Translations under genes and position numbers: made by a program
Shown: positions 10,076 through 45,537 of the stretch, in pieces
Layout of the letters: the number at the start of each line of letters is the position of its first letter
How positions within the stretch are numbered: position 1 is the first letter of the stretch
The notes under the pieces: generated by a model
What the model was told of the DNA's origin: nothing
Database searches by the model: none
What the model saw: only the letters and a program-made list of their open reading frames with translations
Assembly (NCBI GenBank): GCA_009923495.1
Contig: RFTJ01000007.1
Location: 1 to 55,274, forward strand
Length of the DNA: 55,274 nucleotides
From: Actinomycetota bacterium
Lineage (GTDB): Bacteria; Actinomycetota; Actinomycetes; S36-B12; UBA5976
Direction of reading: 5' to 3'

Positions 10076-10093
10076 GCCTGACTCAGTTTCATA

Positions 10094-20019: not shown

Positions 20020-20045
20020 CTACGGCTCCTAACTTGAGCTAGAAC

Positions 20046-21332: not shown

Positions 21333-21368
21333 AACCTCAAGAATAGTAGGGGTTAGATAGAACTGCAG

Positions 21369-23084: not shown

Positions 23085-23210
23085 CACCAATCTGTTTGCT
23101 TGGATTCTGACTTTATCCAGTCCTTGCTGGACACCTAAACGGGATTCCTAGTTGCAGGCTCTAGACTTTTAAATACTAGCCGACTCACTTAACGAAGGGC
23201 ACCAACTCAC

Positions 23211-24293
23211 ATGCCACATGCAGTAACTCATGTCACCGGTGCACGACCCAATTTCCCAAAAGCGGCTCCAGTAATTGCAGCTTTAGCAAAGTTAGGGGTA
23301 AGCCAGCGACTGGTTCACACTGGTCAGCATTATGACGACAAAATGTCTGGGATTTTCTTTGAGGAACTAGATTTGCCACATCCCGACATAAATCTTGGCG
23401 TTGGCTCTGGCAGCCACGCTGCCCAAACAGCACAAACTATGGTTTTGCTTGAACAAGAATTTATCGAAAATCCCCCACAGCTTGTTGTGGTCTATGGAGA
23501 CATCAACTCAACGGTGGCAGCTGCCTTAGTTGCTAGCAAATTGCACATTCCGCTTGCGCACGTAGAAGCCGGACTTCGCAGTTTTGATATGCAGATGCCA
23601 GAAGAAGTGAATCGCATAGTCACCGATCAATTATCTGAGCGACTATACGTAACGAGTCCAGAGGCCATCGGCCACTTAGCGCGCGAAGGCGTGAGCGACG
23701 ACCGTATTGAGTTTGTTGGCAACCCAATGATTGACACTTTGCTAAAGAACTTGGACAAGACTGCAAAGGGCAGTCGACTAACTGAACTTCAGTTGCCTGA
23801 GAAATATTTGGTCGCCACGTTACATCGTCCATCAAACGTTGACGACCGAGATGCTTCATTGCGCATCATCAAGGTCTTACACGAGTTAGCTGACATCCAT
23901 CCGATTTACTTGCCCTTGCACCCTCGTGGACGAGCAAGTCTCTTGGAACTTGGACTGGACCAGCACCCTGATGTGCACATTATCGACCCACTTGGCTATT
24001 TGGACTTCGTTTCGCTCATGCGCTACAGCGCCGGTGTTGTTACGGATTCAGGTGGTGTGCAGGAGGAAACCAGCATCCTAAAAGTGCCCTGCTACACACT
24101 CCGCCCGAATACGGAAAGACCAATAACTATTACCAGTGGCTCGAACTTGCTCGTTACTACTGAGAATGTGGTGGCACATGTGCGCAAGCAGGCGCAAACC
24201 CCCCGCACTTTCACCGTGACTCCACCACTTTGGGATGGGCATGCTGGTGAGCGAATTGCTCAGGGCATCAAGAACTTTTTAGCCAGCAAGTAG
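23211..24293 (+). CDS. wecB: UDP-N-acetylglucosamine 2-epimerase (non-hydrolysing)
   Basis: 360 residues, interconverts UDP-GlcNAc and UDP-ManNAc. Typical motifs: GARPNFPKAAPVI near residue 10 and HTGQHYDDKMSG near 36, VVYGDINSTVAAAL near 93, HVEAGLRSFDMQMPEEVNR near 117, TLHRPSNVD near 204, and the C-terminal VTDSGGVQEE and RPNTERPIT that hold the UDP. Complete and normal length. Starts a rightward run wecB-GT4-permease-ATPase, divergent from the paralogous GT4; the 126-base gap must hold both promoters. ATG with GAAGGG about twelve bases upstream. Confidence 0.96.
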   Translation: MPHAVTHVTGARPNFPKAAPVIAALAKLGVSQRLVHTGQHYDDKMSGIFFEELDLPHPDINLGVGSGSHAAQTAQTMVLLEQEFIENPPQLVVVYGDINSTVAAALVASKLHIPLAHVEAGLRSFDMQMPEEVNRIVTDQLSERLYVTSPEAIGHLAREGVSDDRIEFVGNPMIDTLLKNLDKTAKGSRLTELQLPEKYLVATLHRPSNVDDRDASLRIIKVLHELADIHPIYLPLHPRGRASLLELGLDQHPDVHIIDPLGYLDFVSLMRYSAGVVTDSGGVQEETSILKVPCYTLRPNTERPITITSGSNLLVTTENVVAHVRKQAQTPRTFTVTPPLWDGHAGERIAQGIKNFLASK

Positions 24294-24334
24294 ACTTTCA
24301 ATTAATTAAGCTGAACTAACTTGAGGAAATTTGC

Positions 24335-26392: not shown

Positions 26393-26411
26393 CCTGCGGT
26401 AGGCTATCTGC

Positions 26412-27278
26412 ATGAGCTCAACCGCCGATTTATCTGAATTCGATATGGTTGACGATGTATCAATTCATAAACCTTTTCGGGCTGGATTGCCGAACTTAAA
26501 AAATTACTTCACTGATATGTGGCAGCGCCGAGAATTTGCGGTTGAACTCTCTCGAGCCACACTGCGCTCGCAGTCAGCTGCCACCTTTTTTGGACGAGTC
26601 TGGCTAGTCCTTAACCCTCTATTTCTGGCCATGGTTTACTACACCCTTGCCTACATTGTTTCCAGCGGACGCAATAAGGGGCCAGATTATCTGTGCCACC
26701 TACTCGCGGGCATTTTTGTCTACCATTTCTTTTCCCAATCTATGAATGGTGGCGCGAAAAGTGTAGTTAGTGTTGGCAAGTTGGTCACGAGCCAGTCGTT
26801 CCCTCGGCTAATCCTTCCGCTTTCGGCAGTGCTAGTAGCATTCAGAAGATTCCTGCCATCAATGTTGGTCTACTTGATCTTTCACCTAGTCACTCATCAG
26901 CCACTAAGTTGGCGCCAGCTCATGGCTATACCGGCGCTAATTATGATTTTCTTTTTCGCTCTAGGCGTGGCTTCACTAGTGGCCATGCTTCAGGTGTACT
27001 TCCGAGATTTACGACAGTTCTTGCCCTACTTAACGCGCATTCTGCTTTACATCACCCCCGTGTTGTACTACGCAGATGCAGTAAAAGGTAAATTGAGTGT
27101 TTTTCTATATTTGAACCCATTATTTGCAATGTTCGGCGCTTGGGGAGATGCCCTAGTGCGTGGTGAAATTGCACCGCTAAATTACTGGCTAATCGGTGCT
27201 AGTTGGACCATTGCTACTTTGTTGATTGGCAGCCTGTTATTTATGTCAAGGGAGCGTGAGTTCGCTGTCCGACTTTGA
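26412..27278 (+). CDS. ABC-2 polysaccharide exporter permease (Wzm/TagG type)
   Basis: 288 residues with six predicted membrane helices (roughly 62-84, 95-115, 140-160, 170-195, 205-222, 250-272). The cytoplasmic N-terminus WQRREFAVELSRATLRSQSA followed by FGRVWLVLNPLFLAMVYYTL is typical of TagG/Wzm-like permeases, as is the C-terminal FMSREREFAVRL. With the ATPase that overlaps its 3' end it should flip or export lipid-linked glycopolymer across the membrane. ATG start 19 bases after the GT4 stop with a weak GGTAGG upstream. Confidence 0.93.
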   Translation: MSSTADLSEFDMVDDVSIHKPFRAGLPNLKNYFTDMWQRREFAVELSRATLRSQSAATFFGRVWLVLNPLFLAMVYYTLAYIVSSGRNKGPDYLCHLLAGIFVYHFFSQSMNGGAKSVVSVGKLVTSQSFPRLILPLSAVLVAFRRFLPSMLVYLIFHLVTHQPLSWRQLMAIPALIMIFFFALGVASLVAMLQVYFRDLRQFLPYLTRILLYITPVLYYADAVKGKLSVFLYLNPLFAMFGAWGDALVRGEIAPLNYWLIGASWTIATLLIGSLLFMSREREFAVRL

Positions 27279-28131
27279 TGTTGAAACAGATGTGGATCTA
27301 GATTCAACTGATGAATCTAGTGAAGCAGCACGCGCGCGCAAACTTTACAAAGAGAAAACTTCTCTGCCTGCCATCAAAGTTTCAGATCTTTGCTTGACTT
27401 ATCGAACAACATTTGAAAAAGCTCCAACGCTGAAATCTACTTTGACCCGTTTTGGTCGCGGCGAGCGTGTAGTGAACACTGTTGAAGCGCTGAAAAATGT
27501 CTCATTTGAAATTCCGCATGGCACCGTATTAGGTGTCGTGGGCCATAATGGCGCTGGCAAATCCACGCTGCTACGGGCTATCTCTGGCATCATGCCGCCA
27601 ACGTCCGGACAGATTTCAGTTCATGGAAAAGTGAGTACGTTACTTTCACTCGGTGTTGGGTTCAATACCGAGCTGTCTGGCACCGAGAATATCCTGCTGG
27701 CAGGACTGGCTATCGGCATGTCCCGTGCTGAAGTTGCCGAAAAGCAAAAAGACATTGTTGAGTTCGCGGAACTAGGCAAGTTCATTGACATGCCAACTCG
27801 AACTTACTCATCAGGTATGTCGCAGCGACTGGCCTTCAGCGTTGCTGTGCACATGAACCCAGACATCTTGCTGATTGACGAGGCGCTTTCGGCTGGTGAC
27901 GCTCGGTTCAAAGTTAAAGCACAGGCCAAGATGAAAGAGTTGATGGAGTCAGCTCGTACCATGATTTTGGTCTCGCATGCGCTGAGTTCAATTCGCGATT
28001 TATGCAATGATGCAATTTGGCTAGATCATGGCCAGCTTATGATGCATGCTGATCCAAAAACTGTTACCGATGCTTACGCCGACTTTATGAAGGTAGGAAA
28101 AGACGCATCCGTAGTCAAAGAAGACCTGTAG
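27256..28131 (+). CDS. ABC polysaccharide exporter ATPase (Wzt/TagH type)
   Basis: 291 residues. After an acidic N-terminal ~30 residues comes IKVSDLCLTYRTTFEKAPTLKSTL, typical of TagH/Wzt ATPases, then Walker A GHNGAGKST, signature YSSGMSQRLAFS, Walker B ILLIDEALSAGDARF and switch His in LVSHALSS. There is no extended C-terminal sugar-binding domain, so this is the short form. The GTG at 27256 is chosen because it gives a 23-base overlap with the permease; an in-frame TTG 30 bases earlier would lie deeper in the permease gene. The last base of its TAG stop is also the first base of tRNA-Arg. Confidence 0.92.
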   Translation: MSSLSDFDVETDVDLDSTDESSEAARARKLYKEKTSLPAIKVSDLCLTYRTTFEKAPTLKSTLTRFGRGERVVNTVEALKNVSFEIPHGTVLGVVGHNGAGKSTLLRAISGIMPPTSGQISVHGKVSTLLSLGVGFNTELSGTENILLAGLAIGMSRAEVAEKQKDIVEFAELGKFIDMPTRTYSSGMSQRLAFSVAVHMNPDILLIDEALSAGDARFKVKAQAKMKELMESARTMILVSHALSSIRDLCNDAIWLDHGQLMMHADPKTVTDAYADFMKVGKDASVVKEDL

Positions 28132-28203
28132 GCCCCGTAGCTCAGGGGATAGAGCAGCGGTTTCCTAAACCGCGTGTCGGATGTTCGAATCATCTCGGGG
28201 CCA
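28131..28203 (+). tRNA. tRNA-Arg(CCT)
   Basis: 73 bases: acceptor GGCCCCG/CGGGGCC, D-arm GCTC/GAGC, anticodon stem GCGGT/ACCGC with loop TTCCTAA (anticodon CCT, reading AGG), T-arm GGATG-TTCGAAT-CATCT, discriminator A, no encoded CCA. G1 at 28131 is also the last base of the preceding ABC ATPase stop codon, so the tRNA must be processed from, or share DNA with, that transcript. Confidence 0.96.
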
Positions 28204-28298
28204 CTGAAAATCTGTCGCAATTCCAACTCGCAGAATTCAAAATCTGCGGGTAAGTTCGAATTATCGGACCTTAATAAATAAAAGTGAGTGAAGTTAAT

Positions 28299-28526
28299 AT
28301 GTCAACCATCCCATTGCCGCATCCGACACGTCTATCTCCGGAGCGCGCCGACTATGCGTCAATTATTGCGGCCCACGAGGAAGCAGTACGAGCTGGTGCA
28401 GAAGGTTACCTAGATCCGACCAATGGCACTTTTGTTTTCACGGTAACGAAATTACAGGAACGCACATTTTGTTGTGAGACAGGCTGCCGGCATTGCCCAT
28501 TTCTGGATATCCCAGCCCAGTGGTGA
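28299..28526 (+). CDS. DUF5522 family small cysteine protein
   Basis: 75 residues from the preferred ATG (an in-frame GTG at 28284 would add five). The pattern HPTRLSPERADYASIIAAHEEA, then GYLDPTNGTFVFT and the C-terminal CCETGCRHCPF cluster, fits the DUF5522 family as I remember it; the four clustered cysteines suggest zinc or an Fe-S site. Function unknown. It lies 40 bases before galE on the same strand, and 95 bases after tRNA-Arg. An 80-base leader contains the small inverted repeat CGCAGA/TCTGCG (28229-28248), without a T-run. Confidence 0.8.
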   Translation: MSTIPLPHPTRLSPERADYASIIAAHEEAVRAGAEGYLDPTNGTFVFTVTKLQERTFCCETGCRHCPFLDIPAQW

Positions 28527-28566
28527 CAATTCGCAATTTCACTGTTAGAAGCGCCACAATAGAGAT

Positions 28567-29553
28567 ATGACTTGGCTGATAACAGGCGGTGCTGGATATA
28601 TCGGTGCTCACATTGTCCACCAGAGCATCTCTAGTGGTCGCGATGTAATAGTAATCGATGATCTGAGCACCGGAATCGCAGCTAAACTTCCTAGCGACAT
28701 TCCACTTGTGGTGGCGAATTTAAATGACGCTAAAGCAGTAGAGCAGGTTTTCAACGACTATCAAATTTCTGGCGTACTTCACACTGCGGCAAGAAAGCAA
28801 GTAGGTGAATCTGTTGAACGCCCGCTGTATTACTGGGAAGAAAATGTTGGTGGGTTTACTAATTTGCTCGCCTCAATGCAACAGCACAACGTTAAGAATC
28901 TTGTTTTCAGTTCTAGTGCAGCAGTGTATGGACAACCAGAGTTAGATCTAAATGCTTCAATTTCTGAAAGTGAATTATGTAATCCAATTAATCCTTATGG
29001 GGCAACCAAACTTGCTGGCGAATGGATGGCAGCTGCTCTGGCCAAGTCAGATGGTTTCAAAGTGGTTTCCCTGCGCTACTTCAACGTCGCCGGTGCTGCT
29101 GCTAATGAACTTGGTGATACCTTTGCCCTGAACTTAATTCCGATTGTTATGCAGGCGATAAGTCGAGGTGAGCAGCCTAAGATCTTTGGCGCCGACTACC
29201 CAACGCCCGATGGAACATGTATTCGTGATTACCTGCATGTGCAGGATTTGGCTGAAGCACATGTGGCTGCCATGGACTTGGTGGATAACGGAAGTGCAGG
29301 ATTTCAAGCGATTAACCTTGGTACCGGAAATGGAACAAGCGTTAAAGAAGTAATCGAAATAATCAGCGAGATAACTGGTCAGGTAATTACGCCCGAACTT
29401 GCGCCACGAAGAGCCGGCGACCCACCAGCTCTGGTAGCCAACCCCGGATTAGCAAGGGATGTACTCAATTGGTCCAGCAGATTTGAGCTAACTCAAATGG
29501 TGCAAAGTGCTTGGGCGGCATGGAGTAGTAAAGCTAGCAGCCCATGGCAATAA
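28567..29553 (+). CDS. galE: UDP-glucose 4-epimerase
   Basis: 328-residue short-chain-dehydrogenase-type epimerase, interconverting UDP-Glc and UDP-Gal (possibly the N-acetyl forms). NAD loop TGGAGYIGAHIV at 6-17, DDLSTG near 32, Ser of SSSAAVYGQPE near 117, catalytic Tyr/Lys in NPYGATKLAGE near 144, and RYFNVAGAA near 170. C-terminal GDPPALVANP is also characteristic. It would feed galactose units to the glycopolymer locus upstream. Its 3' end overlaps by 20 bases that of the convergent DUF11 protein. Confidence 0.95.
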   Translation: MTWLITGGAGYIGAHIVHQSISSGRDVIVIDDLSTGIAAKLPSDIPLVVANLNDAKAVEQVFNDYQISGVLHTAARKQVGESVERPLYYWEENVGGFTNLLASMQQHNVKNLVFSSSAAVYGQPELDLNASISESELCNPINPYGATKLAGEWMAAALAKSDGFKVVSLRYFNVAGAAANELGDTFALNLIPIVMQAISRGEQPKIFGADYPTPDGTCIRDYLHVQDLAEAHVAAMDLVDNGSAGFQAINLGTGNGTSVKEVIEIISEITGQVITPELAPRRAGDPPALVANPGLARDVLNWSSRFELTQMVQSAWAAWSSKASSPWQ

Positions 29554-31807
29554 AACTGTGACATTTGGGCCTAGTGGAATCTACTGGTAACACGACAATT
29601 ACTATTCGTGCCTTAGCAGATCTACCTTTGCCATCAAAAATCTTGTAATTAACAGTTGTAGTTCCAGTCCAATTTCGGTAAGGCTTGAACTTTAAGTTTG
29701 TACCCAAGAGCAAGAGGCGACCAACATCACTTGGGAGCTTTTCCATCTCGATTTGCAGCGAATCCTGATCGGGATCCGAAATATAGTCGGCTAAGTCTCT
29801 CGTTTGCCAGTTTGAATTTTGTCTAACTTCAAACCGAATCGATTTTGCATTAGGTGGGCGATTAACCAAAACTTCGGCAAAGGCAAAATTGTTTGTTGGG
29901 TCAGTATCACCGCCTGCCAATCCCGTCATTACTGTGCCGGTCACGCGAAATTTAGACTTTGCTGCATCTGCCCGCAACGTTAACTCCAATGCAGCGGCGC
30001 TTCCAGGCTCCAATCCTGAGCCACTCTTGATTCCTAAGCCAGCAGACTCGCAGTTAATCACACGGCCTGATTGGGCACATCCAGTAGGTAGCACTGACTT
30101 TCTGGTCAATCCTGTAGGCAATGTGAGGCGTATTTGTATCGAGTCATCACTAATTGGGCCAAGGTTATTTACGGTGGCAAGCAAGTCGATGTCACTTCCT
30201 GCTTGCACTATTTGATCAGCAAATTTCAAGGTTAGGGATAGATCAACTGACCGAACTGCATATTCGACTGTGACAATGTTTGAGATTGTTGTTGTTAATC
30301 CTTGATGCCCTGAATAAGTCGCTGAAGCAAAGTTGCTAAAAGTTCCCGAACCAGATGAGACTTCAGCCAGCGCAGTAATTGTGATTGCGGATTGACCAGG
30401 AGATAGTGATCCTAAGTCTGGGCAACTAAGTAGGTTCAAGGAAACTGTGCAACCGCTTGTTGGTGTGGAAATATTTATGAGGTTTGCAGGAAACAGATCT
30501 GACAAATCAATTTTTGAAGCAGAGGAAGTGCCGATGTTAGCTATTTCAATTTTGTATTCGATAACATCGCCTTGGGTAACAGTCAGATTGCTTCCAGCTC
30601 CGCCCTGCGTTATTGCTGAAACATATTTTTTCAATTGCAACTCGGACTTACCCAGTGGCGATGCCCAAATTATTGCGGGGAGATAAAAGCTTTCGGCTGC
30701 GGAATTAAGTGTCAGCCGGACTGATTGAGCACCGTGGGAAATGGCATTCGTAACGGTAAATCGATCCACATCAACGCCGAAAGTATTTTTCGACTTACCT
30801 ACCGACTGCCCGCTGAGGTATGAGCTTCGTAATCCATCAATTGAAACCGAGCTATTCATTATGTTGTTTGCTTCATTTATTGAGTTTGCTAAGAGCGTCG
30901 GGTTTGTTCCTCGCAAAGTCAGTGAATCACCTACAGTTCCAGCGTCGCCATCGATGCCAACTAAACCAACTAGGGACTCGATGTCACCGCTAATTGGCGA
31001 GTCAAAGCCAGTTATTTCAAAGTTGTGTGCCGAGCGCGGAGCAACAAGTGTCAGTCCTGACTTAAATTCAATATGTTGCAATTGTTCAGCTGCGCTCTCG
31101 TAAATTAGAACAATTGCCCAACCAGCACTCGTACCCAAACCCTGCGCGCCCTGGACATTCGCTACAGTGAACTGCGCATTCCTGTGCCCAGAACTAGATG
31201 ACCATAATTCGGGATAGTTTTGCTTAATTCGGGTTGTGACATCGGCATGGGATACATAAAAGCCGCTCTCACCAGCGCCAAGTGATTCGGTGTACTGAGT
31301 GCCAGTTACAGTGCAAGAAGTAAGGGGCGTGCAGTCTTCTCCAGGCCCGGCCAAAATGACCTCATTAGCCTTACTCGCTACTAATGGTGCGACGCCAAAT
31401 TCTTGTGCACTCGGAGTTTCCAAGGTGCCAAACCAGAATAGATACGCTTTCTTGATTTGCGAGCTTGCAGGGATTTTAATTTCATTGATAGATGAATTAA
31501 AGATTTTTGACGAATCAACTGCGGCTACTGAAACTTCGGTATTTCGCATCACATGTGCATCATTGTTTAGTTCATTTGCGACTCCAGTAAAATTTCGCGC
31601 CAAGTAGCAGGAGTCTGAATTTGGACCCAGATTTGTTGAACAAGTCTGATTTGAATTTCCGGTTAAGGTAAAGGATCCAGTTAAATTCTCAGAGTACAAG
31701 GTTTGAAAAGTTGCTAGCTCGGCAGATTCAGCGCTCGGAATACCTATCACTGTTGCACTGAGAACTGAAATAATGAATGCCAAATTTACTAACCTAAATT
31801 TACGCAT
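29534..31807 (-). CDS. Secreted DUF11-repeat surface protein
   Basis: 757 residues. Signal peptide (hydrophobic LAFIISVLSATVIG, cleavage near AESAE around 30). The N-terminal ~370 residues, with IKKAYLFWFGTLE, a DVTTRIKQNYPELW-type strand and AGWAIVLIYES, resemble the large beta-sandwich heads (DUF3344-like) that often precede DUF11. Two DUF11 domains follow (about 395-515 and 520-650, e.g. VTQGDVIEYKIEIANIG and VQAGSDIDLLATVNNLG), then a cadherin/Ig-like module with YISDPDQDSLQIEM and VNYKIFDGKGRS. No LPxTG and no C-terminal helix, so it is released or held non-covalently. ATG with AGGGGA upstream. Function unknown, possibly adhesion or matrix. Confidence 0.82.
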   Translation of the reverse strand: MRKFRLVNLAFIISVLSATVIGIPSAESAELATFQTLYSENLTGSFTLTGNSNQTCSTNLGPNSDSCYLARNFTGVANELNNDAHVMRNTEVSVAAVDSSKIFNSSINEIKIPASSQIKKAYLFWFGTLETPSAQEFGVAPLVASKANEVILAGPGEDCTPLTSCTVTGTQYTESLGAGESGFYVSHADVTTRIKQNYPELWSSSSGHRNAQFTVANVQGAQGLGTSAGWAIVLIYESAAEQLQHIEFKSGLTLVAPRSAHNFEITGFDSPISGDIESLVGLVGIDGDAGTVGDSLTLRGTNPTLLANSINEANNIMNSSVSIDGLRSSYLSGQSVGKSKNTFGVDVDRFTVTNAISHGAQSVRLTLNSAAESFYLPAIIWASPLGKSELQLKKYVSAITQGGAGSNLTVTQGDVIEYKIEIANIGTSSASKIDLSDLFPANLINISTPTSGCTVSLNLLSCPDLGSLSPGQSAITITALAEVSSGSGTFSNFASATYSGHQGLTTTISNIVTVEYAVRSVDLSLTLKFADQIVQAGSDIDLLATVNNLGPISDDSIQIRLTLPTGLTRKSVLPTGCAQSGRVINCESAGLGIKSGSGLEPGSAAALELTLRADAAKSKFRVTGTVMTGLAGGDTDPTNNFAFAEVLVNRPPNAKSIRFEVRQNSNWQTRDLADYISDPDQDSLQIEMEKLPSDVGRLLLLGTNLKFKPYRNWTGTTTVNYKIFDGKGRSAKARIVIVVLPVDSTRPKCHSFIAMGC

Positions 31808-34491: not shown

Positions 34492-35178
34492 ATGGAGCAT
34501 CAGAATCCCGAGTTGTCCAAAATGCGAGTTTCGTATGAGAAATTCGAATTGAATGAGAGTGGCCTCCAAGCAACTCCCCTTGACCAGCTCAATCTGTGGC
34601 TACGAGAAGCAGTTGATGCTGGGCCCGATAAAATTCCAGAACCAAATGCCATGGTGCTTTCTACTGTTAACGACCTTGGCGACGCTCATTCACGCACCGT
34701 TCTGCTCAAAGGACTTGACAATCAAGGATTAACTTTTTTCACGAACTACCAATCTCAAAAAGCAAACGATCTCGCCAGCAACCCCAGTGTGAGCGCCCTA
34801 TTTCCCTGGTATTCGTTACACCGACAGGTAATTGTTTCAGGAACGGTTACAAAGGCTAGTCGAGAGATTTCAGAAGCGTATTTCTCAACTAGGCCACATA
34901 AATCTAAACTCGGTGCACACATCAGTATGCAGTCTGCTGAAATTTCAGGTCGCGAAGTACTTGAAGCAGATATGGCGCAACTAGAGGAAAAGTTCCCAGA
35001 AGGTGCAAATGTTCCACTGCCAAATCATTGGGGCGGATACCTAATCCAAGTTTTCGCTATTGAATTCTGGCAAGGTCGTCGATCGCGCCTACATGACCGC
35101 ATCAAGTTTGTGCGTAAAAGTGAAGGCGGGTTACTCGACCAAGCTGATGCCTGGCAAATAACCCGCCTATCGCCCTAA
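34492..35178 (+). CDS. pdxH: Pyridoxamine 5'-phosphate oxidase
   Basis: 228-residue FMN enzyme that oxidises pyridoxine/pyridoxamine 5'-phosphate to PLP. Family features: EPNAMVLSTVNDLGDAHSRTVLLKGLD (FMN phosphate site), FFTNYQSQKANDLASNPSVS, LFPWYSLHRQVIVSGTV, a YFSTRPHKSKLGAHISMQS block, and the C-terminal FWQGRRSRLHDRIKF with the substrate Arg/His. Normal length. ATG at 34492 is used; a second ATG ten codons later is possible and no strong Shine-Dalgarno separates them. PLP made here is used, among others, by SerC at 44401. Convergent with the giant gene (one base between stops). Confidence 0.96.
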   Translation: MEHQNPELSKMRVSYEKFELNESGLQATPLDQLNLWLREAVDAGPDKIPEPNAMVLSTVNDLGDAHSRTVLLKGLDNQGLTFFTNYQSQKANDLASNPSVSALFPWYSLHRQVIVSGTVTKASREISEAYFSTRPHKSKLGAHISMQSAEISGREVLEADMAQLEEKFPEGANVPLPNHWGGYLIQVFAIEFWQGRRSRLHDRIKFVRKSEGGLLDQADAWQITRLSP

Positions 35179-35179
35179 G

Positions 35180-38100
35180 TTACTTAACTTTTAGATTGGT
35201 AACTGGTGGTGTTGGCGGTGCGGGCTTTGCTACAGTAATCGCATAGCCATCAATCTGAACACCATTTCCGGCCTTCGCAACATTAATCGCAATCTTGGAG
35301 TTGGCCTTAATTGCCGTGGTAAAGCAAATTGACTTAATCTGACCTGCTTTGCCCGCGGTCGCAATCGGCTTGCCGAGCTTCTTGCCATTAACAGTGACCG
35401 TAAACGAGCCAAACTTAGGCCCAGTTGCGTAGTAGATGCACAAAGATTTACCTGCGGCAGCCTTCGTGACATTTAGTACCGCATTCTTTGAGTTCTTCTT
35501 AGCCATTGTGACCTTGCCAAGGAACGATCCCTTTACGGCAACTTGTGACCAGAGCTTTGTTTTCGCTGGTTTCATGGCCGTATCATCCATAGCGACTGTG
35601 GAACATGATGGTGCAGTATATGCCGATGCATTTCCTGACTTATCAAGCATGCTTACGGCAAAGCAGTAGGTCGTACCACGGACACCCATGATGCTATAAC
35701 TGGTTCCAGTTACATCAATCGGAGCGGACCAAGGGCCCATCGCCTTTCCATACGCTGCCGAAGCAATCACGACCTGCGAACTCAGTGCCTTGCCGTCAAT
35801 GCCATCATTGCCGGTCCACTGCCATGTTGGCGTGACCAAGGTAGTTGCTGTTGGTGACTTGCTGATTTTCACGCCGGTTGGTGCCGAGTTATCAGTTGCA
35901 CCGAGTACTAGCGTAATGTTTGTCAGGGACTGAACATCTTTACTGGTATTAACTACCAAAGCGTCGGCGGGCTTAGCAACTGCGCAGCCAGACTTAGGAT
36001 CTGGCAGATTATCACTGGTCACACACTTGTCATTGCCTAGATATGCTGGCGTGAAGTCACTATCCAAGCCATCGGCGAAGAATGCGTAATTACCCACTTC
36101 AGCATTGAATTCGGCGCCATCAAATGTCCATTTTCCTTCGGCATCCGTGTAAACGCTCAATACATCGTCGGAATTTACATCAAGTTTGGTGCCCGCTACC
36201 CGATAGATGTTCACCAGAGCTTCGGCTCGTGGGTTTCCATCCGCATCAAGGACTACGCCACCAAATTGGACTGAGTAGTGCTGAATAAAGTTAATTTCCA
36301 ATTTGTCACCACTGCGGCCAGTGAAGTCTGCATCGCCATCAACAACCAAGAAGCCAGATTCTGGCTCACTGTTTACTGTGAAGTGGACACCAAGTGGTAG
36401 GTCAGTAAATGAATACTTACCTTCGCTATCGGTATCCGTTGATGCATACTCGTCACCTTCATCAGTTAACAAGGTTACTGTTTGGCCAGCAATTGCAACC
36501 CCATCAAGGGTTTTAATCGATCCAGTTAAGGCAGCCAAAATAGCAACTTCGTTGAACTCGAGTTGATTAGTTTCTACATTGCCAGTCGGCGCTGCTGCAT
36601 TCCAAGTCCATGACTCTTCTGCAGAATTACCGCTGGTACCGGTAACGCTTATTGGGAAAAGGCTAACTGGAACTCGATTGAAGGTAACAGATCCCCAGGC
36701 ATCAGCCTCTAGTGTTCCTAACACCTGTGAGTCAACTTCTGGCCCTTCACCCTGAGCATTTACCTTTACCTTGAGATGTACAACTACATTCTCGAGAGCA
36801 ACGGGCCTACCATTCTTGACAGGAACTGTTACCTGCACTGCGGAATTTAGTACCACGGCAGGCATAGTTGGTGCTGCTCCAGTTGCGGGGACGGTGTATG
36901 AAGTTGCGTCAGCCACAGATAGTGCGTTTGCGTTGCCCACCCAACCGACGGAAGTGTTCAAATCATCTGGAACAACCTGTACGCGATAACTCTCACCGCG
37001 GACTGCGCCGAAAGTGTAACTTCCGGTGAAGGTGGAACCACCTAAGTCTGGCTGGATACTCCAAGACTTGCCTTCTTGTTTGTATACATTAATGGTCGCA
37101 GGCTGTGTATAAGCGGAAGAACCAGATTTCACATTAACCGTAAATTTTGGCAAGGCCACAGCGGTGAGTTTTGCAGCAGTAACCGCTTTGTCACGAACTT
37201 TAACCAATACGGTGGCTGGATCGGAAACCGACTTTGTGCCTCCGATAAATGTCAAAGCGTAGCTACCTGGTAGTTCATAACTCACCTTGTAATCACCGCG
37301 AAGGCCATCAATATTGAATGTACCGCCAGTTGCCACATCAGTGTAGGCCACTACAGCTCCAGCTCGGTTGTATACAGTGACGGTACCTTCCGTTAATACG
37401 GTGTTGCCATCAACGACCTGAACTTGAAGTGAGCCACCAATAGAGGCCAAATCTAATGGATCGTTCATTAAGTCAAGACTCGTGGTGAATGCTGCAGAAC
37501 CATTAGCAATGTTCAAGATGGTTGCATTTGCAGCAATTGAATCGAGGATTACTCCTGTTTCTGTGTCGCTAATGAAACCACTTGGGTAACCAGGAGCAGA
37601 AATCTGAACGAGGTAAGCGCCATCTGGTGCAAATACTGAGAAGAAGCCATCCGCATCAGTCTGACCAGCGAAAGAGCCACCACCTGATGTTGAGGTCAGC
37701 GTCACGGTTGCCCCAGAAATTGTAGACAACCCTGCCTTTAGCAGGCCATCGAATACAGTCCAGAACTTCAATGGTGCTGGATCAATATCTGTGACCAATT
37801 CACCACGCTTTGCTTCAATAGTGGTTGCTGTTGCAAATGATGATGCATTAATCTCGCCGCTTGCATACCAAGTGCGCTCGGCCGGTTTGGCGGCAACAGT
37901 GCCGTCAATTCGCATCCGGTACGAGCCAGGAACCAATCCAGAGAAGTTGAAGTAACCATCCTCATCAGTGATTTCTGTTCTAACCGGCGTGAGTCCATTG
38001 CCAGAAGCAAGGTACAAACCAACAACTGCTCCAGCAACCGGCAGGTCAGTTGGCGTAACAACATCCAAGCCTCGGCGATTGAAGCCAACAATCTGCAATG

Positions 38101-41100
38101 ACTGTTGCAGACCTGATCCTAGAACTCGGCCAGAGATACCCGATGCAGAGTCAAGAACTGCGTCTTGTGTTGCCGATTGACCAGCAGTCAGATTTACCGA
38201 CGCTGATTTATCAGCGAATCGCTCTAGCGAGAACTTAAGTTTGTACGAACCTGGAATTAGCTGAATGAATGTGTAGGTTCCATCTTCAAGGGTCGTAGTT
38301 TGCGCAACTACATCCCCGTTTGAAGCGAGCAGGTCAACAGTAACTCCAGCCATCAAGGTTTGGAAGCTATCTGCTACCTGGCCACTTAAAGTTGCTGCGG
38401 AAACATTAACTACGCCAGTTACCGGAGTAACTGCGCCAGCAGCCGGAATCAAAATTGATTTAGCTAAATTCACAGTTAGCGCCGACGAATTTGCACCTAG
38501 CCACACAGGGGCTAGCGCTGGGTTAGCTGGGACTAACCTAATTCGATACTGGCTGGAATTGATCACACCAAATGTGAGTGCTCCGTCAGAAGTTTCTTGA
38601 GTTAGTCCTTGATCTAGGACCCATTGCCCATCTTCTTGGGTATAAACCTCTACCAAGGTTGGCTGCTTGTAGGCAGAAGACCCACCGTTAATGTTCACAG
38701 TAAGTTTTGGCAAGGACTTTACCTTTATTGCAGCAGTGATACTTGATCCGTCAGTTACTGTCACGGTCTTAGTGCCGGTTGCGCCTAAAGAAGTAGTATC
38801 GCCGAAGAAGGTTTCAGCAAAAACACCATCTAGTTGGTAACTGATTCGGTAATAGCCAAGTAGGCCCGAGAGACTAAATACTCCGCCGACACTTGAACTA
38901 TCCTGGGCAACGATCTTTCCAGTCTTGTCATATGCACTAACAAGCCCTTCAGTAACTGCCTGACCCAGGTCATCTTTAATAGAGACGGTTACCTTTCCAC
39001 CATTAGCGCCAAGGTCGAGCGATAACGCGGTTTCGGTCAGGCCACTATCAAATGAAAGGTTGCCCGCGGAGATAAAAAGTACCGCGGCAGTTGCAGCTGA
39101 GGCCGTCAAAACGGGGGTACCCACTTCAGAAGCATCCACATAACCGATCGAATATCCTGGCGCGGCAACCTTGATGCGGTAAGCGCCATCTGGTGCATAG
39201 ATTGCGAAGTTACCCCGCTCGTCCGTGACGCCAGTCAGCAAGGCATTGCCAGCCAGGGAAATCAAACTAACCGAAACTAACGACACCGAACCGCCAACGA
39301 CCGACCATTGTCCATCATGGACATTGCCAGTGAATAGGGTCCATGCACTTGCTGGAGCAGGATCAATTCCCGAGGCATAACTGCCAAGTGTTGCGGTGAC
39401 TGACTGGCCCACACGGAAAGTTCCGGCATTTTCTTCGCCGCCGCCATACCAAAATGAGTCGGCAGGGACTTCGGCAATGCTGTTATCAAAATAGAGTTTG
39501 TAACTGCCAGCTGGCAGGCCAACAAAGTTGTAGTTACCATCTGCATCCGTCTGCACAGTCTGCAGTGCAACATTTCCAGTTCCCGTTGCCGAATAGACAG
39601 AAACAGACCCGCCAACAACTGGGCTACGCAATTGGCCATCAAGTAGCACTCGACCAGAGATGCCAGTAGCTGGAGTTAACTGAGTAGAAATCGGCGTTAT
39701 CGTATCGGCAACGACCGACTGCGACTTTAAATACTTTATTGCGTATCCATCTGCCATAATCTTGATTGTGTAAACACCAGGCACTTCTTGACTGAAACGA
39801 TAGCTGCCATCTGCTCGAGAAGTTGTTGAATCAACCACAGACCCAGAATTGTCAATCAGTGAAACTGAGGCATTTGCAATGCCAGCGGCATCCTGATCCA
39901 AAACGCTTCCTTGAATCACACCAGCCACAGAGTTCATAACCACATTGCCCAGCGCAGGTGCAGAGCCAGTTGCAGGGATAGTGATTGTTGAGGCAAAATT
40001 AACCGACTTTGCTAACCGTGCTGAACCAACCCAAACTGGCGTCAGCAACTCAGAGTTCGGAACAACCCTGATTCGGTACTGATCGCCTTTTGAAACACCA
40101 AATGAAATGGTGCCCTCCGATGTTTCTCGGGACAATCCATCGTTTAGGGTCCAGGTACCGTCAACTAGCGAGTAAATCTCTACCATTATCGGTTGCTTGA
40201 AAGCGGATGCTGGAGTTGAGCCGGTTACAACGTTGACGGTGAGCTTTGGCAAAGCTTTCACATTGATTGTCACCGATGGCTTTTGGGTCTTACTTACCGT
40301 GACTGGTTGGGTTTTAGGATCGCTGATGTCAGAAGTTCCACCGTAGAAAGTCTTAGCAAAGACACCATCTTGCTCGTAACTCAAGCGGTAGGAACCGCTC
40401 AAGCCAGAAATCGTGAAAGTGCCAGACTGTGGCTTGTCGTCATAGCCAGCAATATTGCCGGCTGAATCATAGGCAGTTACAGCACCATCAGTAATTGTCT
40501 TGGAGTTATCGTCTTTAACGGTAATCGTGGCTGTACCACCTGTACCTGAAAGGTCTAGGGTTAAATCATCCGCCTTTAGTCCACCTTCAATCACGGCCAC
40601 ATGGTCATTGACTGATACGACAGCAGCGCCAACTGCCGAGGCAGAAAGTGTTACATCACCACCTTCAGTGGCATCAATAAAACCGCTAGCGAATCCAGTT
40701 GCCTGAACCTGAATTTGATATGAGCCATCTGGCGCATACAGAGCAAAATTGCCATTCTCATCAGTGAGGTCGGTGGCGATAACCTTGCCGGTCAAAGTAG
40801 CCAAAGAAACGGTAACCAAAGAAATTGCTGCGCCAGACACAGCGCTAGCACTGTCAAGGATCGTTCCCTTAATGAGCGCCCATGACTTAGTTGGTCGCGA
40901 ATCTATGTTTTTCAGGTACTCGCCAAGTTTTGTCGTGACCGTAGCCCCAGACTTAAAGGTTTCAACATTTGCCTGTTCTCCGTACCAGAAGGAATCGGTC
41001 GGCACATCTGCTGTTGTGCCATCAAATCGGATTTTGTACGAACCAGCTGGAAGACCAATTAGGTTGTAAGCACCGTCATCTTGAGTCTGAACTGAGTTGA

Positions 41101-44100
41101 TTGGAGTTACTCCCGAGCCGCCTGCCGCAAATATCGAAACTGTCGCGCCAACAACAGGTGAGCCATCTTCAGCAAGCATTAGGCCGGTAACACCAGAAGC
41201 AGAATTAAGTGTCATTGGCACAGAGGCCGTCTGGCCACTTTGCACCTTTACATTATTGGCATACTTAATTGCTAGTCGTTCAGCGATAAATTTCAGAGTA
41301 TAGGTTCCTGGTGCTACACGGTAGATGTTATAAATGCCGTCCTCACGAGAAGTTGCTGTCTGCAAGATATTGCCATCAGTATCAAGAAGTTGAATTTGGG
41401 CATTTGCCACCTGGCCAGCAAAGCTGTCGCTAACTGCCCCTCGAATTCCACCAGTTCTGACATTAAGTACGACATTGTCTAGAGTAGGCGCTTTGCCGGT
41501 TGTCGGGATCGTTATCGTCGATGCATCTTTAACCGTGGTAGCGAATGGCACAGAACCAAGCCAAATGGGCGCAAATTCCGGAGCGTCGGTGACAACCCGA
41601 ATACGATAGGCGCCACCATTTGAAACACCTAACGACACGGTGCCATCACCAGCAGATGTAGTCAGATCGTCGTTTATCGACCAAGCGCCAGATTTTAAGG
41701 TGTAAACCTCTACAGTTACATCGTCAGTGTAAAGAGCGGCGTTGGTTCCTGAATCAACAACCAACTTTAGGTTTAAGTTCGGCAGATTAACGGTACTCAA
41801 CTTGTAACTGTAAGACTTGCCATCAGCAACTGGGACGACGGTTGTGCCGGCATCAGAGAGTTTCGTGGTGCCGCCAACAAAGCGTTTTGCATACTGTCCT
41901 GGTGCCTCGAAACTAAAAGTGTGATTGCCACGCAGTCCACTTAAGCTAAAGGTGCCATTTTCATCACATTGGTCGGTAAAGGCAACAGAATTCCCTTGGC
42001 TGTCATAGGCCACTAAGACACCGTCAGAAACTGGCTCCTGCGCCTCATCCGTTACTGTAACTTTTACGGTTCCGCCAGAGGCAGATACATCAACTGAGCC
42101 AACATCTTTGGCCAGGCCATCCTCAATCGTGACCTTTACTGCGTCTGCGAAATTCTTGATTAGTGTCGGCAGGCCATTAGTTGAGCCGAGGTATCCCGTT
42201 GTGTAGCCGGTGGCAGCAATCTTGACGCCATAAATGCCATCGGGAACTGAAATTTCGAAATTGCCATCGGGATCTGTTTCAGCAGTCTGAGCGATTAGGC
42301 CATCGGTACTTACCAAAGTCACCGTGGCATTTTCCAAGCCAGCAACTACCTGCTCGCCATTTTCATCCAGCACCTTGCCTCTAACATTTCCGGTTACAAG
42401 TGCCCATGGTGTTACGGGCGCCGGATTAACATTTGTTGTGACCAAGCCGGGTCGAGTGATTACATCAGCTGCTTGGCCAAATGATTTTCCGTTGGCACCA
42501 GTGCTTAGTTGCCAGAAATTGCTAGTTGGCGGATTTGCAGTTGATCCGTCGTATTTGATCCGATAGGAGCCGGCCGGCAGGCCGCTGAAGATGTAGGTTC
42601 CGTCAGCCTGGGTGATCGTTGAACTGACAGCAATTAAGCCTGAGCCAGAAGCTGAGTAGGCCGAAACGCGAACACCGTCTATTCCTTGGCCAGATTTTGT
42701 CGTAATTACCTTGCCAGAAATTCCAGATCCAGAATAAAGAACCATGTCCTGGGTGCTTAGCTTGTTCACCGCCGCCGTGAAGTCATCTGAATATGCTGTT
42801 CGGTAATTTTCGTTAGTGAATTTTAATGAATATTTTCCGGCACCGACTCGAGTGATTCGGTACTGTCCTTTATCGTCTGTAGAGGTGCTAGTAACGGTAT
42901 CGCCGTATGCGCTAATCAATTCAACTGTGGTGTAAGCAACGGCACTGCCTTCGCTACTAGTTACTTTGCCAGTTACAACTGCTGCGCTGGGCAAAGCTAC
43001 ATTCTGCTGCGTAACGTTAGTAGTCCCAACGACGACACCGAGAATTGAGTTAGAAAGGCGGTAGTCTTGCCAGTCACTTGATTCGTCATAGAAGTACAGG
43101 TTGTAAGTTCCAGCGCTCAATCCGTTTGTTGAGTACTTTCCATCAGTACCTGTTTGTGCCGGTGATACAGGGGTTTCATTTCCATCGGCATCAACTGCAG
43201 CGACTTCAATTCGCACATCCGCTACTGGGGCACTGCTCACCTTATCGGTGGCCGCAGTCACGGTGCCGGAAATGGTTAGTCCACTTACTAGCACCTGAGT
43301 AGTGCTTGTTGTCTCACCCTCATTGATTGTTACGGCCTTCGGATCAGAATCACGAAGCACGCTACCCAACGGGCCACCAACCCACATTGTGTAATCCCCA
43401 GGCGCTATGCCCTTAATTACCGCTACACCTTCACTATCGGCAGTGGCCAGTCCAATTTCTTCATCGGAATTCAAAAGGTGAACTACTGCGTTTGCAGCCT
43501 TACCAAACCTTGAAGATACAGTCACCGACAAAATTCCACCGGCAAGTGGCGTGTAAGGAGTTGGGTTTGCCAAATTTGTTGTGAGCGAAGTGAATGACTT
43601 CTCAACAAGCAAATCCTGATGTAGGCCAGCTGGATCTACAATCTTGAGGCTGTAGCTTCCGATCGCAGGAATCGGAAAAGTTGCAAGCCCGTCCTTATTT
43701 GGTGCGATGAATGAATCGAAGGTTGCATCTGCCCCATTGAACTGACCGGTCAAAGTGATTATCGCATCTGCAATAGGTTGATTAGTTTTTGAATCCATTG
43801 CTTTGACGGCAAACTTTCCAATTGCGGAAAGTTTGAAATCGGGAATGGTTAGCGCAGCCTTATCCTCTACTAGCAATTTGCCGTCTAGAACGGAAAAGGT
43901 TTTAGAAGTGGAAACACCTAATTTTGCAGTCGGGACCTCGGCAAGGGTTAAGGGGTTGGAAATCCGATAAGTACCGTCTTCAACATTTTCAAATTTGTAA
44001 GGCGCACTAGTCGAAGTAGGAGCAGGCGAAGGTGCAATGGTTGCAGTTGCTACCTGGGTGAACTTATCCTGGTCTGCGTCGTACTGCTCAAGTTGCAATG

Positions 44101-44233
44101 TGGCGCTAACAAAAAGTTCTTTGGCAAATGTCACTTTTCCAGCAACTGTCGCACCTGCTGCCTTGGCTGGTATTGCCATGCCCGTCACAGCAATTGTCGC
44201 TGCTAGCAGAATCTTTACAATCCGAGAATGCAT
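35180..44233 (-). CDS. Giant secreted repeat protein (3,017 residues) with carboxypeptidase-regulatory-like domains
   Basis: Signal peptide MHSRIVKILLAATIAVTGMA ends near PAKAAG. The rest is a chain of small beta-sandwiches of the carboxypeptidase-regulatory/CNA-B type, each with a variant of 'V-T-DxDGxYxFxGLPAGSYKIRFDG'. Residues ~30-500 are leading modules. Four long repeats begin near 500 (SGSGISGKV), 1009 (SASGVTGLM), 1519 (ATGISGRVL) and 2028 (SASGISGRV); each has an aromatic FWYG/TWYA block, a DPAP-x-WxLxxG segment, APDGAYxIxV and VWLG. From ~2460 diverged modules, a fibronectin-like segment (TPTWQWTGNDGIDG, with SAPIDVTGTSYSI) and a last beta domain ending in a Pro-rich tail follow. 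No LPxTG or membrane anchor. Cysteines are almost absent before the end. ATG with AGGGG upstream. Likely a fibre or adhesin. Confidence 0.88.
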   Translation of the reverse strand: MHSRIVKILLAATIAVTGMAIPAKAAGATVAGKVTFAKELFVSATLQLEQYDADQDKFTQVATATIAPSPAPTSTSAPYKFENVEDGTYRISNPLTLAEVPTAKLGVSTSKTFSVLDGKLLVEDKAALTIPDFKLSAIGKFAVKAMDSKTNQPIADAIITLTGQFNGADATFDSFIAPNKDGLATFPIPAIGSYSLKIVDPAGLHQDLLVEKSFTSLTTNLANPTPYTPLAGGILSVTVSSRFGKAANAVVHLLNSDEEIGLATADSEGVAVIKGIAPGDYTMWVGGPLGSVLRDSDPKAVTINEGETTSTTQVLVSGLTISGTVTAATDKVSSAPVADVRIEVAAVDADGNETPVSPAQTGTDGKYSTNGLSAGTYNLYFYDESSDWQDYRLSNSILGVVVGTTNVTQQNVALPSAAVVTGKVTSSEGSAVAYTTVELISAYGDTVTSTSTDDKGQYRITRVGAGKYSLKFTNENYRTAYSDDFTAAVNKLSTQDMVLYSGSGISGKVITTKSGQGIDGVRVSAYSASGSGLIAVSSTITQADGTYIFSGLPAGSYRIKYDGSTANPPTSNFWQLSTGANGKSFGQAADVITRPGLVTTNVNPAPVTPWALVTGNVRGKVLDENGEQVVAGLENATVTLVSTDGLIAQTAETDPDGNFEISVPDGIYGVKIAATGYTTGYLGSTNGLPTLIKNFADAVKVTIEDGLAKDVGSVDVSASGGTVKVTVTDEAQEPVSDGVLVAYDSQGNSVAFTDQCDENGTFSLSGLRGNHTFSFEAPGQYAKRFVGGTTKLSDAGTTVVPVADGKSYSYKLSTVNLPNLNLKLVVDSGTNAALYTDDVTVEVYTLKSGAWSINDDLTTSAGDGTVSLGVSNGGAYRIRVVTDAPEFAPIWLGSVPFATTVKDASTITIPTTGKAPTLDNVVLNVRTGGIRGAVSDSFAGQVANAQIQLLDTDGNILQTATSREDGIYNIYRVAPGTYTLKFIAERLAIKYANNVKVQSGQTASVPMTLNSASGVTGLMLAEDGSPVVGATVSIFAAGGSGVTPINSVQTQDDGAYNLIGLPAGSYKIRFDGTTADVPTDSFWYGEQANVETFKSGATVTTKLGEYLKNIDSRPTKSWALIKGTILDSASAVSGAAISLVTVSLATLTGKVIATDLTDENGNFALYAPDGSYQIQVQATGFASGFIDATEGGDVTLSASAVGAAVVSVNDHVAVIEGGLKADDLTLDLSGTGGTATITVKDDNSKTITDGAVTAYDSAGNIAGYDDKPQSGTFTISGLSGSYRLSYEQDGVFAKTFYGGTSDISDPKTQPVTVSKTQKPSVTINVKALPKLTVNVVTGSTPASAFKQPIMVEIYSLVDGTWTLNDGLSRETSEGTISFGVSKGDQYRIRVVPNSELLTPVWVGSARLAKSVNFASTITIPATGSAPALGNVVMNSVAGVIQGSVLDQDAAGIANASVSLIDNSGSVVDSTTSRADGSYRFSQEVPGVYTIKIMADGYAIKYLKSQSVVADTITPISTQLTPATGISGRVLLDGQLRSPVVGGSVSVYSATGTGNVALQTVQTDADGNYNFVGLPAGSYKLYFDNSIAEVPADSFWYGGGEENAGTFRVGQSVTATLGSYASGIDPAPASAWTLFTGNVHDGQWSVVGGSVSLVSVSLISLAGNALLTGVTDERGNFAIYAPDGAYRIKVAAPGYSIGYVDASEVGTPVLTASAATAAVLFISAGNLSFDSGLTETALSLDLGANGGKVTVSIKDDLGQAVTEGLVSAYDKTGKIVAQDSSSVGGVFSLSGLLGYYRISYQLDGVFAETFFGDTTSLGATGTKTVTVTDGSSITAAIKVKSLPKLTVNINGGSSAYKQPTLVEVYTQEDGQWVLDQGLTQETSDGALTFGVINSSQYRIRLVPANPALAPVWLGANSSALTVNLAKSILIPAAGAVTPVTGVVNVSAATLSGQVADSFQTLMAGVTVDLLASNGDVVAQTTTLEDGTYTFIQLIPGSYKLKFSLERFADKSASVNLTAGQSATQDAVLDSASGISGRVLGSGLQQSLQIVGFNRRGLDVVTPTDLPVAGAVVGLYLASGNGLTPVRTEITDEDGYFNFSGLVPGSYRMRIDGTVAAKPAERTWYASGEINASSFATATTIEAKRGELVTDIDPAPLKFWTVFDGLLKAGLSTISGATVTLTSTSGGGSFAGQTDADGFFSVFAPDGAYLVQISAPGYPSGFISDTETGVILDSIAANATILNIANGSAAFTTSLDLMNDPLDLASIGGSLQVQVVDGNTVLTEGTVTVYNRAGAVVAYTDVATGGTFNIDGLRGDYKVSYELPGSYALTFIGGTKSVSDPATVLVKVRDKAVTAAKLTAVALPKFTVNVKSGSSAYTQPATINVYKQEGKSWSIQPDLGGSTFTGSYTFGAVRGESYRVQVVPDDLNTSVGWVGNANALSVADATSYTVPATGAAPTMPAVVLNSAVQVTVPVKNGRPVALENVVVHLKVKVNAQGEGPEVDSQVLGTLEADAWGSVTFNRVPVSLFPISVTGTSGNSAEESWTWNAAAPTGNVETNQLEFNEVAILAALTGSIKTLDGVAIAGQTVTLLTDEGDEYASTDTDSEGKYSFTDLPLGVHFTVNSEPESGFLVVDGDADFTGRSGDKLEINFIQHYSVQFGGVVLDADGNPRAEALVNIYRVAGTKLDVNSDDVLSVYTDAEGKWTFDGAEFNAEVGNYAFFADGLDSDFTPAYLGNDKCVTSDNLPDPKSGCAVAKPADALVVNTSKDVQSLTNITLVLGATDNSAPTGVKISKSPTATTLVTPTWQWTGNDGIDGKALSSQVVIASAAYGKAMGPWSAPIDVTGTSYSIMGVRGTTYCFAVSMLDKSGNASAYTAPSCSTVAMDDTAMKPAKTKLWSQVAVKGSFLGKVTMAKKNSKNAVLNVTKAAAGKSLCIYYATGPKFGSFTVTVNGKKLGKPIATAGKAGQIKSICFTTAIKANSKIAINVAKAGNGVQIDGYAITVAKPAPPTPPVTNLKVK
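36860..42740 (-). repeat. Four tandem ~1.53-kb coding repeats in the giant gene
   Basis: The phrase encoding S/T-G-I/V-S/T-G recurs near 42735, 41205, 39675 and 38150, spacing 1,530, 1,530 and about 1,525 bases. Each unit repeats the same order of six modules; the fourth lacks the sixth and runs into the unique C-terminal part. DNA identity looks moderate rather than perfect, so the array is old or diversified. Confidence 0.8.
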
Positions 44234-44400
44234 TAGAACCCCTAAATTCGCCTTGTCTAGAGGACATTATCCCACTAAAACTATGCTTTTAGGTAACAGG
44301 ATTCAGGAATTTGTAGCAATCTTGGATTTTGCTTGTGCGTTACTTCTTGCGAGACACTCCCTGAAAGTGCGAGAAAATTTCCATCTTTTACACTTGTCAC

Positions 44401-45537
44401 ATGGCTGAAAATCTTGAAATTACTATTCCTGTTGACTTTTTACCCAAAGACGGGCGCTTTGGCGCTGGGCCGTCAAAAGTGCGTGAAGAGCAAATATCCG
44501 CTCTATCTAAGGTTTCTCGGTCATATTTGGGTACTTCTCACCGGCAAAAGCCGGTGAAGAATGAGGTCGCTCGCCTGCGCGCCGGTGTTGCAGAACTGTT
44601 CAATTTGCCACAGGGTTACGAGGTCGTAATTGGCAATGGTGGCTCAACGGCATTCTGGGAAGTGGCAGTTTTTGGCCTCATTCGAGATCGTGCCCAATTC
44701 TTGTCATTTGGGGAGTTTGGTTCAAAGTTTGCTAGTTCAGCAAAGAGTGCCCCATTTCTGGGGGAACCTACTGTTCTAAAAGGCGAGCCCGGCGATGCGC
44801 CATCATTCATAGCTGAACCTGGCATTGATGCTTATTGCAGCCCACACAATGAAACTTCCACTGGTGTGGCAGTGACCCCAGTGCGTCCAGTTGGTGCGGA
44901 TGAAGATGCCCTCGTAATTATCGACGCGACTTCAGGGGCAGGCGGCCTCGCGGTTGATTTGGCAGAGGTAGATGTCTACTACTTCTCGCCACAAAAATGT
45001 TTTGGTTCTGATGGTGGGCTGTTCATCGCACTTATGTCTCCTAAAGCGATTGCTAGAGCCGAAGAAATTAAAGCAAGCGGTCGTTACATTCCTGCGTTCC
45101 TTGATCTGATGACTGCGATTGAAAATAGTCGACTCGACCAGACCTACAACACTCCAGCGCTGGCAACTATCTTTATGATGGCTGAGCAGGTGGATTGGTT
45201 TAACGCAAATGGCGGACTTAACTGGTGTATTGCCAGATCAACTGAATCTTCTGATGCTATTTACAATTGGGCCGCAGCAAGTAACATTGCAACACCATAT
45301 GTATCTGATCCAACTAAGCGATCGAAAGTTGTTGCCACAATTGACTTTGATGAGTCGATAGACGCAACAATAATCGCAAAAAATCTGCGGGCGAATGGAA
45401 TTGTGGATGTTGAGCCATACCGTAAACTCGGCCGAAACCAATTACGAATTTCAGTTTTTCCAGCAGTAGAACCAAGCGATGTTCGTCAGCTTCTGAAAAG
45501 TATTGACTACGTAGTGGGCCAGCTCGCAGGAGACTAA
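44401..45537 (+). CDS. serC: Phosphoserine aminotransferase
   Basis: 378-residue PLP enzyme that makes O-phospho-L-serine from 3-phosphohydroxypyruvate and glutamate. It is the actinobacterial type: LPKDGRFGAGPSKVREEQ at the start, SYLGTSHRQKPVK, GNGGSTAFWE near 80, DATSGAGG near 180 and PLP lysine in YYFSPQKCFGSDGG near 200. C-terminal FPAVEPSDVRQLLKSIDYVV is also typical. ATG start with no clear Shine-Dalgarno, perhaps leaderless. Its TAA stop overlaps that of the tiny convergent membrane ORF. Confidence 0.96.
   Translation: MAENLEITIPVDFLPKDGRFGAGPSKVREEQISALSKVSRSYLGTSHRQKPVKNEVARLRAGVAELFNLPQGYEVVIGNGGSTAFWEVAVFGLIRDRAQFLSFGEFGSKFASSAKSAPFLGEPTVLKGEPGDAPSFIAEPGIDAYCSPHNETSTGVAVTPVRPVGADEDALVIIDATSGAGGLAVDLAEVDVYYFSPQKCFGSDGGLFIALMSPKAIARAEEIKASGRYIPAFLDLMTAIENSRLDQTYNTPALATIFMMAEQVDWFNANGGLNWCIARSTESSDAIYNWAAASNIATPYVSDPTKRSKVVATIDFDESIDATIIAKNLRANGIVDVEPYRKLGRNQLRISVFPAVEPSDVRQLLKSIDYVVGQLAGD

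Follow-up and report, generated by a model that had tools for sequence, protein, structure and literature searches.

Large proteins made of CarboxypepD_reg modules (PF13620) are encoded by long open frames with signal-like N-termini in Arthrobacter, Pseudarthrobacter and Microbacterium. Serial prealbumin-like sandwiches with SdrD_B matches also form the MSCRAMM adhesins SdrD and UafA and the CnaB pilins. In Apilactobacillus kunkeei, which has a genome of 1.5 Mb, the giant secreted repeat proteins Giant1-5 lack a transmembrane segment and have been detected both with the cells and in the supernatant; their positively charged C-terminal end has been proposed to bind the anionic wall (PMC12863079).

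The giant protein encoded in the window, the whole 55,274-nucleotide stretch of actinobacterial DNA analysed here, recalls each of these systems in part. It has the module type and the aromatic WY block of the actinobacterial CarboxypepD_reg proteins, although its full five-module unit finds no match outside two carrier species and several of the Arthrobacter relatives end, by eye, in other repeats, unlike the tail of the giant. It shares serial sandwiches and SdrD_B matches with the MSCRAMM adhesins and the CnaB pilins, but lacks an LPxTG motif and scores 88 bits with the NCBIfam SdrD model, whose cut-off is 2500. The likeness to the A. kunkeei giants is one of design only; these consist of helical or solenoid repeats with DUF5776/SH3b-like ends, whereas the window giant is built of sandwiches and closes with an FN3-plus-sandwich tail (PMC12863079). 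The terminal sandwich itself can be aligned structurally with CBM35 modules (Z ~8, on a low-confidence model), with no sequence match to them. We put at about one half the probability that the giant is an accessory secreted surface protein, in which a basic foot, perhaps one that binds glycans, would keep an acidic rod in place without a covalent bond.

The giant gene and its features

The ORF reading of the window places a single uninterrupted frame of 3,017 codons (~9 kb) on the minus strand at 35180-44233; on the plus strand the same region has many stops. The initial annotation had reported this unbroken frame, leaving out its strand, as the gene, in a compact genome, of a secreted protein built from serial carboxypeptidase-regulatory-like sandwiches, a description that agrees with our analysis of the protein (308 kDa) and with the size of the source genome (1.45 Mb). 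This size and those of the related genomes would fit a streamlined freshwater actinobacterium, perhaps a Nanopelagicales-like one. It had also claimed a signal peptide, and a hydrophobic, signal-like segment is indeed present at residues 1-26, where hydrophobicity over 19 residues is higher than anywhere else in the protein. The features of the locus are the following.

35180..44233, minus strand: giant gene, 3,017 aa, stop included; one open frame, with an orthologue in genome G012
44156..44233, minus strand: signal peptide-like N-terminus, aa 1-26, MHSRIVKILLAATIAVTGMAIPAKAA; read by eye and from hydrophobicity, the pattern recurring in G012
42980..44155, minus strand: N-terminal region, aa 27-418, about four sandwich modules; Pfam SpaA, CarboxypepD_reg and Ig_DR_A0283-like matches
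41447..42979, minus strand: unit 1 (U1), aa 419-929, modules a-e; unit alignment
39917..41446, minus strand: unit 2 (U2), aa 930-1439, modules a-e, the unit that was modelled; alignment and predicted strands
38390..39916, minus strand: unit 3 (U3), aa 1440-1948, modules a-e; unit alignment
36839..38389, minus strand: unit 4 (U4), aa 1949-2465, modules a-e; alignment, 69% identity to the G012 copy
35894..36838, minus strand: pre-tail C-terminal modules, aa 2466-2780, the most acidic part, pI 4.1
35183..35890, minus strand: basic tail, aa 2782-3017, FN3-like domain and terminal sandwich, pI 9.9; a portable C-terminal module
44234..44400, no strand: intergenic region between the divergent giant gene and serC, common to both
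34492..35178, plus strand: pdxH, convergent left neighbour and edge of the insertion site; TIGR00558 above cut-off, synteny
44401..45537, plus strand: serC, divergent right neighbour and other edge of the insertion site; TIGR01366 above cut-off, synteny

An assembly chimera is unlikely, because the giant gene adjoins pdxH and serC in a separate metagenome-assembled genome too (G012, which corresponds by its contigs to MAG JR-DAM-100519-59). There, contig ends split it into an N-terminal part of 810 aa beside serC and a C-terminal part of 1,111 aa beside pdxH.

Repeat units and module fold

The four units are 511, 510, 509 and 517 residues long, with a period of ~1,530 bp, and self-alignment of the protein reaches its best score, 578, at a lag of 513, against a maximum of 68 over 50 shuffles. 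The repeats had been described as four units of ~510 residues recurring almost exactly every 1,530 bases. The periodicity holds on alignment, and unit length is regular (509-517 aa), but the sequences are far from exact copies, any two units being only 35-45% identical in amino acids and 45-54% in DNA. Four-fold sites between units are 29-38% identical, where 27% is expected from composition; sites so close to random indicate that the duplications are old, and their near-saturation rules out a recent repeat expansion. Tandem Repeats Finder, whose longest period of 500 is shorter than the unit, saw no long array. Unit 4 of the window giant is closer to unit 4 of G012 than any two units of the giant are to each other, which places the origin of the units before the split between the two species.

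Each unit has five modules and not six, as first proposed. From predicted strands, Pfam (CarboxypepD_reg) matches and module-by-module alignment, modules a-e of unit 2 measure 83, 105, 112, 99 and 111 aa, and every module finds its best match in its namesakes from the other units. The whole chain comprises ~29 modules, made up of about four N-terminal ones, the four five-module units and about five C-terminal ones, the counts at both ends being made by eye. CarboxypepD_reg matches 15 stretches, 12 of which are individually above cut-off, and the whole protein scores 423 bits against a cut-off of 32.3; SdrD_B and SpaA matches are also found.

The AlphaFold model of unit 2 (mean pLDDT 73, pTM 0.40) consists of serial sandwiches. 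Module a adopts the transthyretin-like fold known from carboxypeptidases N and D (77 residues aligned at 1.2 A, Z 14), in a comparison that informs on this module and barely covers modules b-e. The best overall structural matches to the unit are strings of pilin and MSCRAMM stalk domains, and fold searches of this kind exclude no family. In type, the modules are ordinary sandwiches of the CarboxypepD_reg/transthyretin-like kind. The recurrent aromatic FWYG blocks, which the initial annotation had regarded as possible binding faces, come after a GSYKxxFD strand. At the same position the Arthrobacter and Pseudarthrobacter relatives read GSYKLxF...QWYxNAxSFxTATAVTV, with a block WY...ATxVTV after a GSYK(L/V)xF strand. 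Since an equivalent WY block follows the GSYK strand in these relatives, FWYG belongs to that module type; it is the common WY block of the actinobacterial relatives, and its interpretation as a special binding face is not supported.

The basic C-terminal tail

Residues 2782-3017 differ sharply in charge from everything that precedes them. The tail has a net charge of ~+20 and a pI of 9.9, whereas any earlier 237-residue window has a charge of +3 at most and the regions before the tail have pI 4.1-4.7. In a search within the order, relatives of the tail turned up at the very C-terminal end of other open frames, and the bodies that carry them are unrelated (M4 metallopeptidase, CHAP, NHL propellers, RCC1 repeats and a DUF5122/delta-60 propeller). 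A 13-row profile of the tail is present in 62 of 396 genomes of the phylum, with up to 7-8 per genome. The tail ends five residues or fewer from the C-terminus in 37 of the 43 examined. Its pI is likewise above 9 in 37 of 43, with a median of 10.15 versus 5.44 for the remaining protein. This figure is circular in part, since the basic residues being counted are themselves built into the profile; the C-terminal position, unlike the pI, is free of this circularity. Some tails in the phylum are neutral or acidic (pI 5.6-7.0). Genomes G324, G461 and G351 have 7-8 tail copies each, on different open frames, and two actinobacterial genomes of 1.3-1.4 Mb contain frames of 7,162 and 7,182 aa, in each of which the terminal half of the profile matches twice (G183:C9:14254-22956 and G198:C8:37106-45817). 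With a single tail in the source genome, there is no sign there of an anchoring route common to several proteins.

In some members Pfam matches the FN3 half of the tail. For the terminal half, the proteins scanned showed no convincing Pfam cover and, in NCBIfam, only weak overlaps far below cut-off. The predicted structure of the C-terminal region, made from a two-sequence alignment (pLDDT 40), is usable as a hint for its last ~100 residues only. In this low-confidence model the terminal sandwich aligns best with a phage baseplate protein (Z 10.6), followed by CBM35-type modules (Z 8-8.4, ~100 residues), a faint resemblance that may serve as a lead. We found no paper on the tail or on the giant protein in the open-access literature, a scope that makes this weak evidence of novelty. 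Judging from these sequence comparisons, the FN3 domain and terminal sandwich together form a portable C-terminal module, and we found no curated family describing it. It is possible, if doubtful, that the tail is an undescribed and widespread actinobacterial attachment module, which would bind an anionic wall glycan and do without a covalent link what sortase signals do with one, with the giant as its extreme passenger; on secreted enzymes the tail could equally provide secretion stability or bind external glycans instead.

Free secretion, an unlikely reading that nevertheless has several observations on its side, would make the giant a released matrix or solute-binding protein whose tail contributes stability or binds external polysaccharide. 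Tails are also found at the ends of secreted enzymes and propellers, the giant has no covalent anchor, and the modelled terminal domain is weakly similar to carbohydrate-binding modules. However, a protein of this mass lost to open water would presumably be costly for so small a genome, and the tail carrier with a CHAP domain is expected to act at the wall.

Distribution and insertion site

The giant gene is present in two of the 23 genomes of the genus, the source genome and G012, and the distribution among relatives is patchy. Eleven congeners have an empty site: in ten of them pdxH and serC are 59-108 bp apart with nothing between, and in the eleventh, G005, the gap is 87 bp. The spacer of G020 has short ORFs and G011 has a different gene order. 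Another antisense gene occupies the spacer in four congeners, G016, G006, G014 and G007 (L030:2685-3482, L031:2623-3435, L032:2515-3237 and L035:2152-2874); its product of ~240 aa is, by eye, like an Asp/Glu racemase or maleate isomerase. Because other antisense genes are found in the spacer of these four, pdxH-serC is a repeated single-gene insertion site. Gene order shows the giant gene to be an accessory indel, whether by single gain or repeated loss, in a spacer that accommodates one gene at a time.

The giant proteins of the two carriers are 58-71% identical, compared with 90% for serC and 67% for pdxH. In the C-terminal part of the orthologues dN is 0.23 and dS 2.7, and such identity between proteins whose synonymous sites are saturated indicates that the giant gene is kept by selection. 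A full five-module unit match was found neither in other genomes among the 166 of the order nor among 396 genomes sampled across the phylum, where at most three candidates were scored per genome. Partial unit matches are common beyond the genus, and the phylum genomes contain very long frames with such modules (2,867-5,930 aa), so neither the size of the giant nor its module type is novel in itself. The arrangement of four units of five modules appears so far to be limited to two species.

A search of 50,697 phage records gave no match, and none of the 107 pattern matches in viral contigs encodes a relative, which leads us to reject a phage or viral origin. The same results, together with the identity of the immediate neighbours, pdxH and serC, leave the earlier suggestion of phage defence without support. 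A more general form of this idea, that the giant is a shield or spacer against phage or grazers whose fibre masks receptors, and that its patchiness reflects phage or grazer selection and not adhesion, seems to us improbable. It would agree with the patchy presence among congeners and with an identity between carriers below that of serC, though similar to that of pdxH, but there are no defence genes among the adjoining genes, the phage records and viral contigs hold no relatives, and the overall pattern of change is purifying, not diversifying.

Anchor signals

Motif and hydrophobicity reading of the giant protein found no LPxTG or LAxTG motif, hydrophobic C-terminal helix or lipobox, in agreement with the initial annotation, and the G012 orthologue likewise ends without an LPxTG-type signal and hydrophobic segment. 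Neither SLH domains nor DUF5776/SH3b-like C-terminal domains are among the Pfam matches of the giant. The source genome encodes two sortases, one in the window and the second on contig C9. At 7211-10669 on the plus strand of the window, a SpaA-domain protein of 954 aa, with LPNTG close to its C-terminus, is directly followed by the sortase gene (10094-10669), and the two are likely a substrate-enzyme pair. Another secreted multi-sandwich protein (29534-31807, minus strand; 757 aa; DUF11, cadherin-like and Big_9) lies 3.4 kb from the stop codon of the giant. That the giant is a sortase-anchored MSCRAMM or pilin-type adhesin with an overlooked signal, as its SdrD_B, SpaA and SdrD model matches and the two sortases, one of them beside the LPNTG protein, might suggest, is very improbable, and we rejected it since neither the giant nor its orthologue carries a sorting signal.

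Proposed working and significance

The reading that we favour is that of an acidic rod on a basic foot. The sequences show that a five-module cassette had given rise to all four units by the time the two carrier species diverged, and that purifying selection has preserved the gene since then. The product, a signal peptide-bearing acidic chain of ~29 small beta-sandwich modules, would be exported and could form a semi-rigid rod some 100 nm long, a sandwich of this kind being ~3.5-4 nm long. The basic tail would attach this rod to the anionic envelope by non-covalent contacts, possibly with an acidic glycan, and the units and the N-terminus would reach away from the cell as a fibre for adhesion or spacing. 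A role as a fibre is plausible, and such a fibre might, as the initial annotation suggested, touch prey, host or particles.

The window also contains a surface-glycan locus (17926-29553), whose genes include an acyltransferase-like protein, two related glycosyltransferases and a GalE-like epimerase. WecB is above cut-off and a Wzm/Wzt-like exporter below its cut-offs; a nucleotide-sugar dehydrogenase is above its subfamily cut-off, and the nearest named models, UDP-ManNAc dehydrogenases, are below theirs. By gene content, the product is possibly an acidic glycan of the ManNAcA type. Given the WecB, nucleotide-sugar dehydrogenase and exporter genes, we conjecture that an acidic, uronate-bearing envelope glycan is a plausible target of the tail.

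CarboxypepD_reg giants are widespread, and what seems to be new here is the portable basic tail. As a lineage-specific giant in a compact genome, absent from the other congeners examined, the protein points to a trait for which two species maintain 9 kb of DNA. The theme that it has in common with the A. kunkeei giants is that of very long surface proteins on a positively charged foot. The tail gives a formerly anchorless giant protein a testable attachment claim and, if it is an attachment module, many anchorless secreted actinobacterial proteins, including proteases, CHAP proteins, propellers and giants, would become assignable to the cell surface by one profile.
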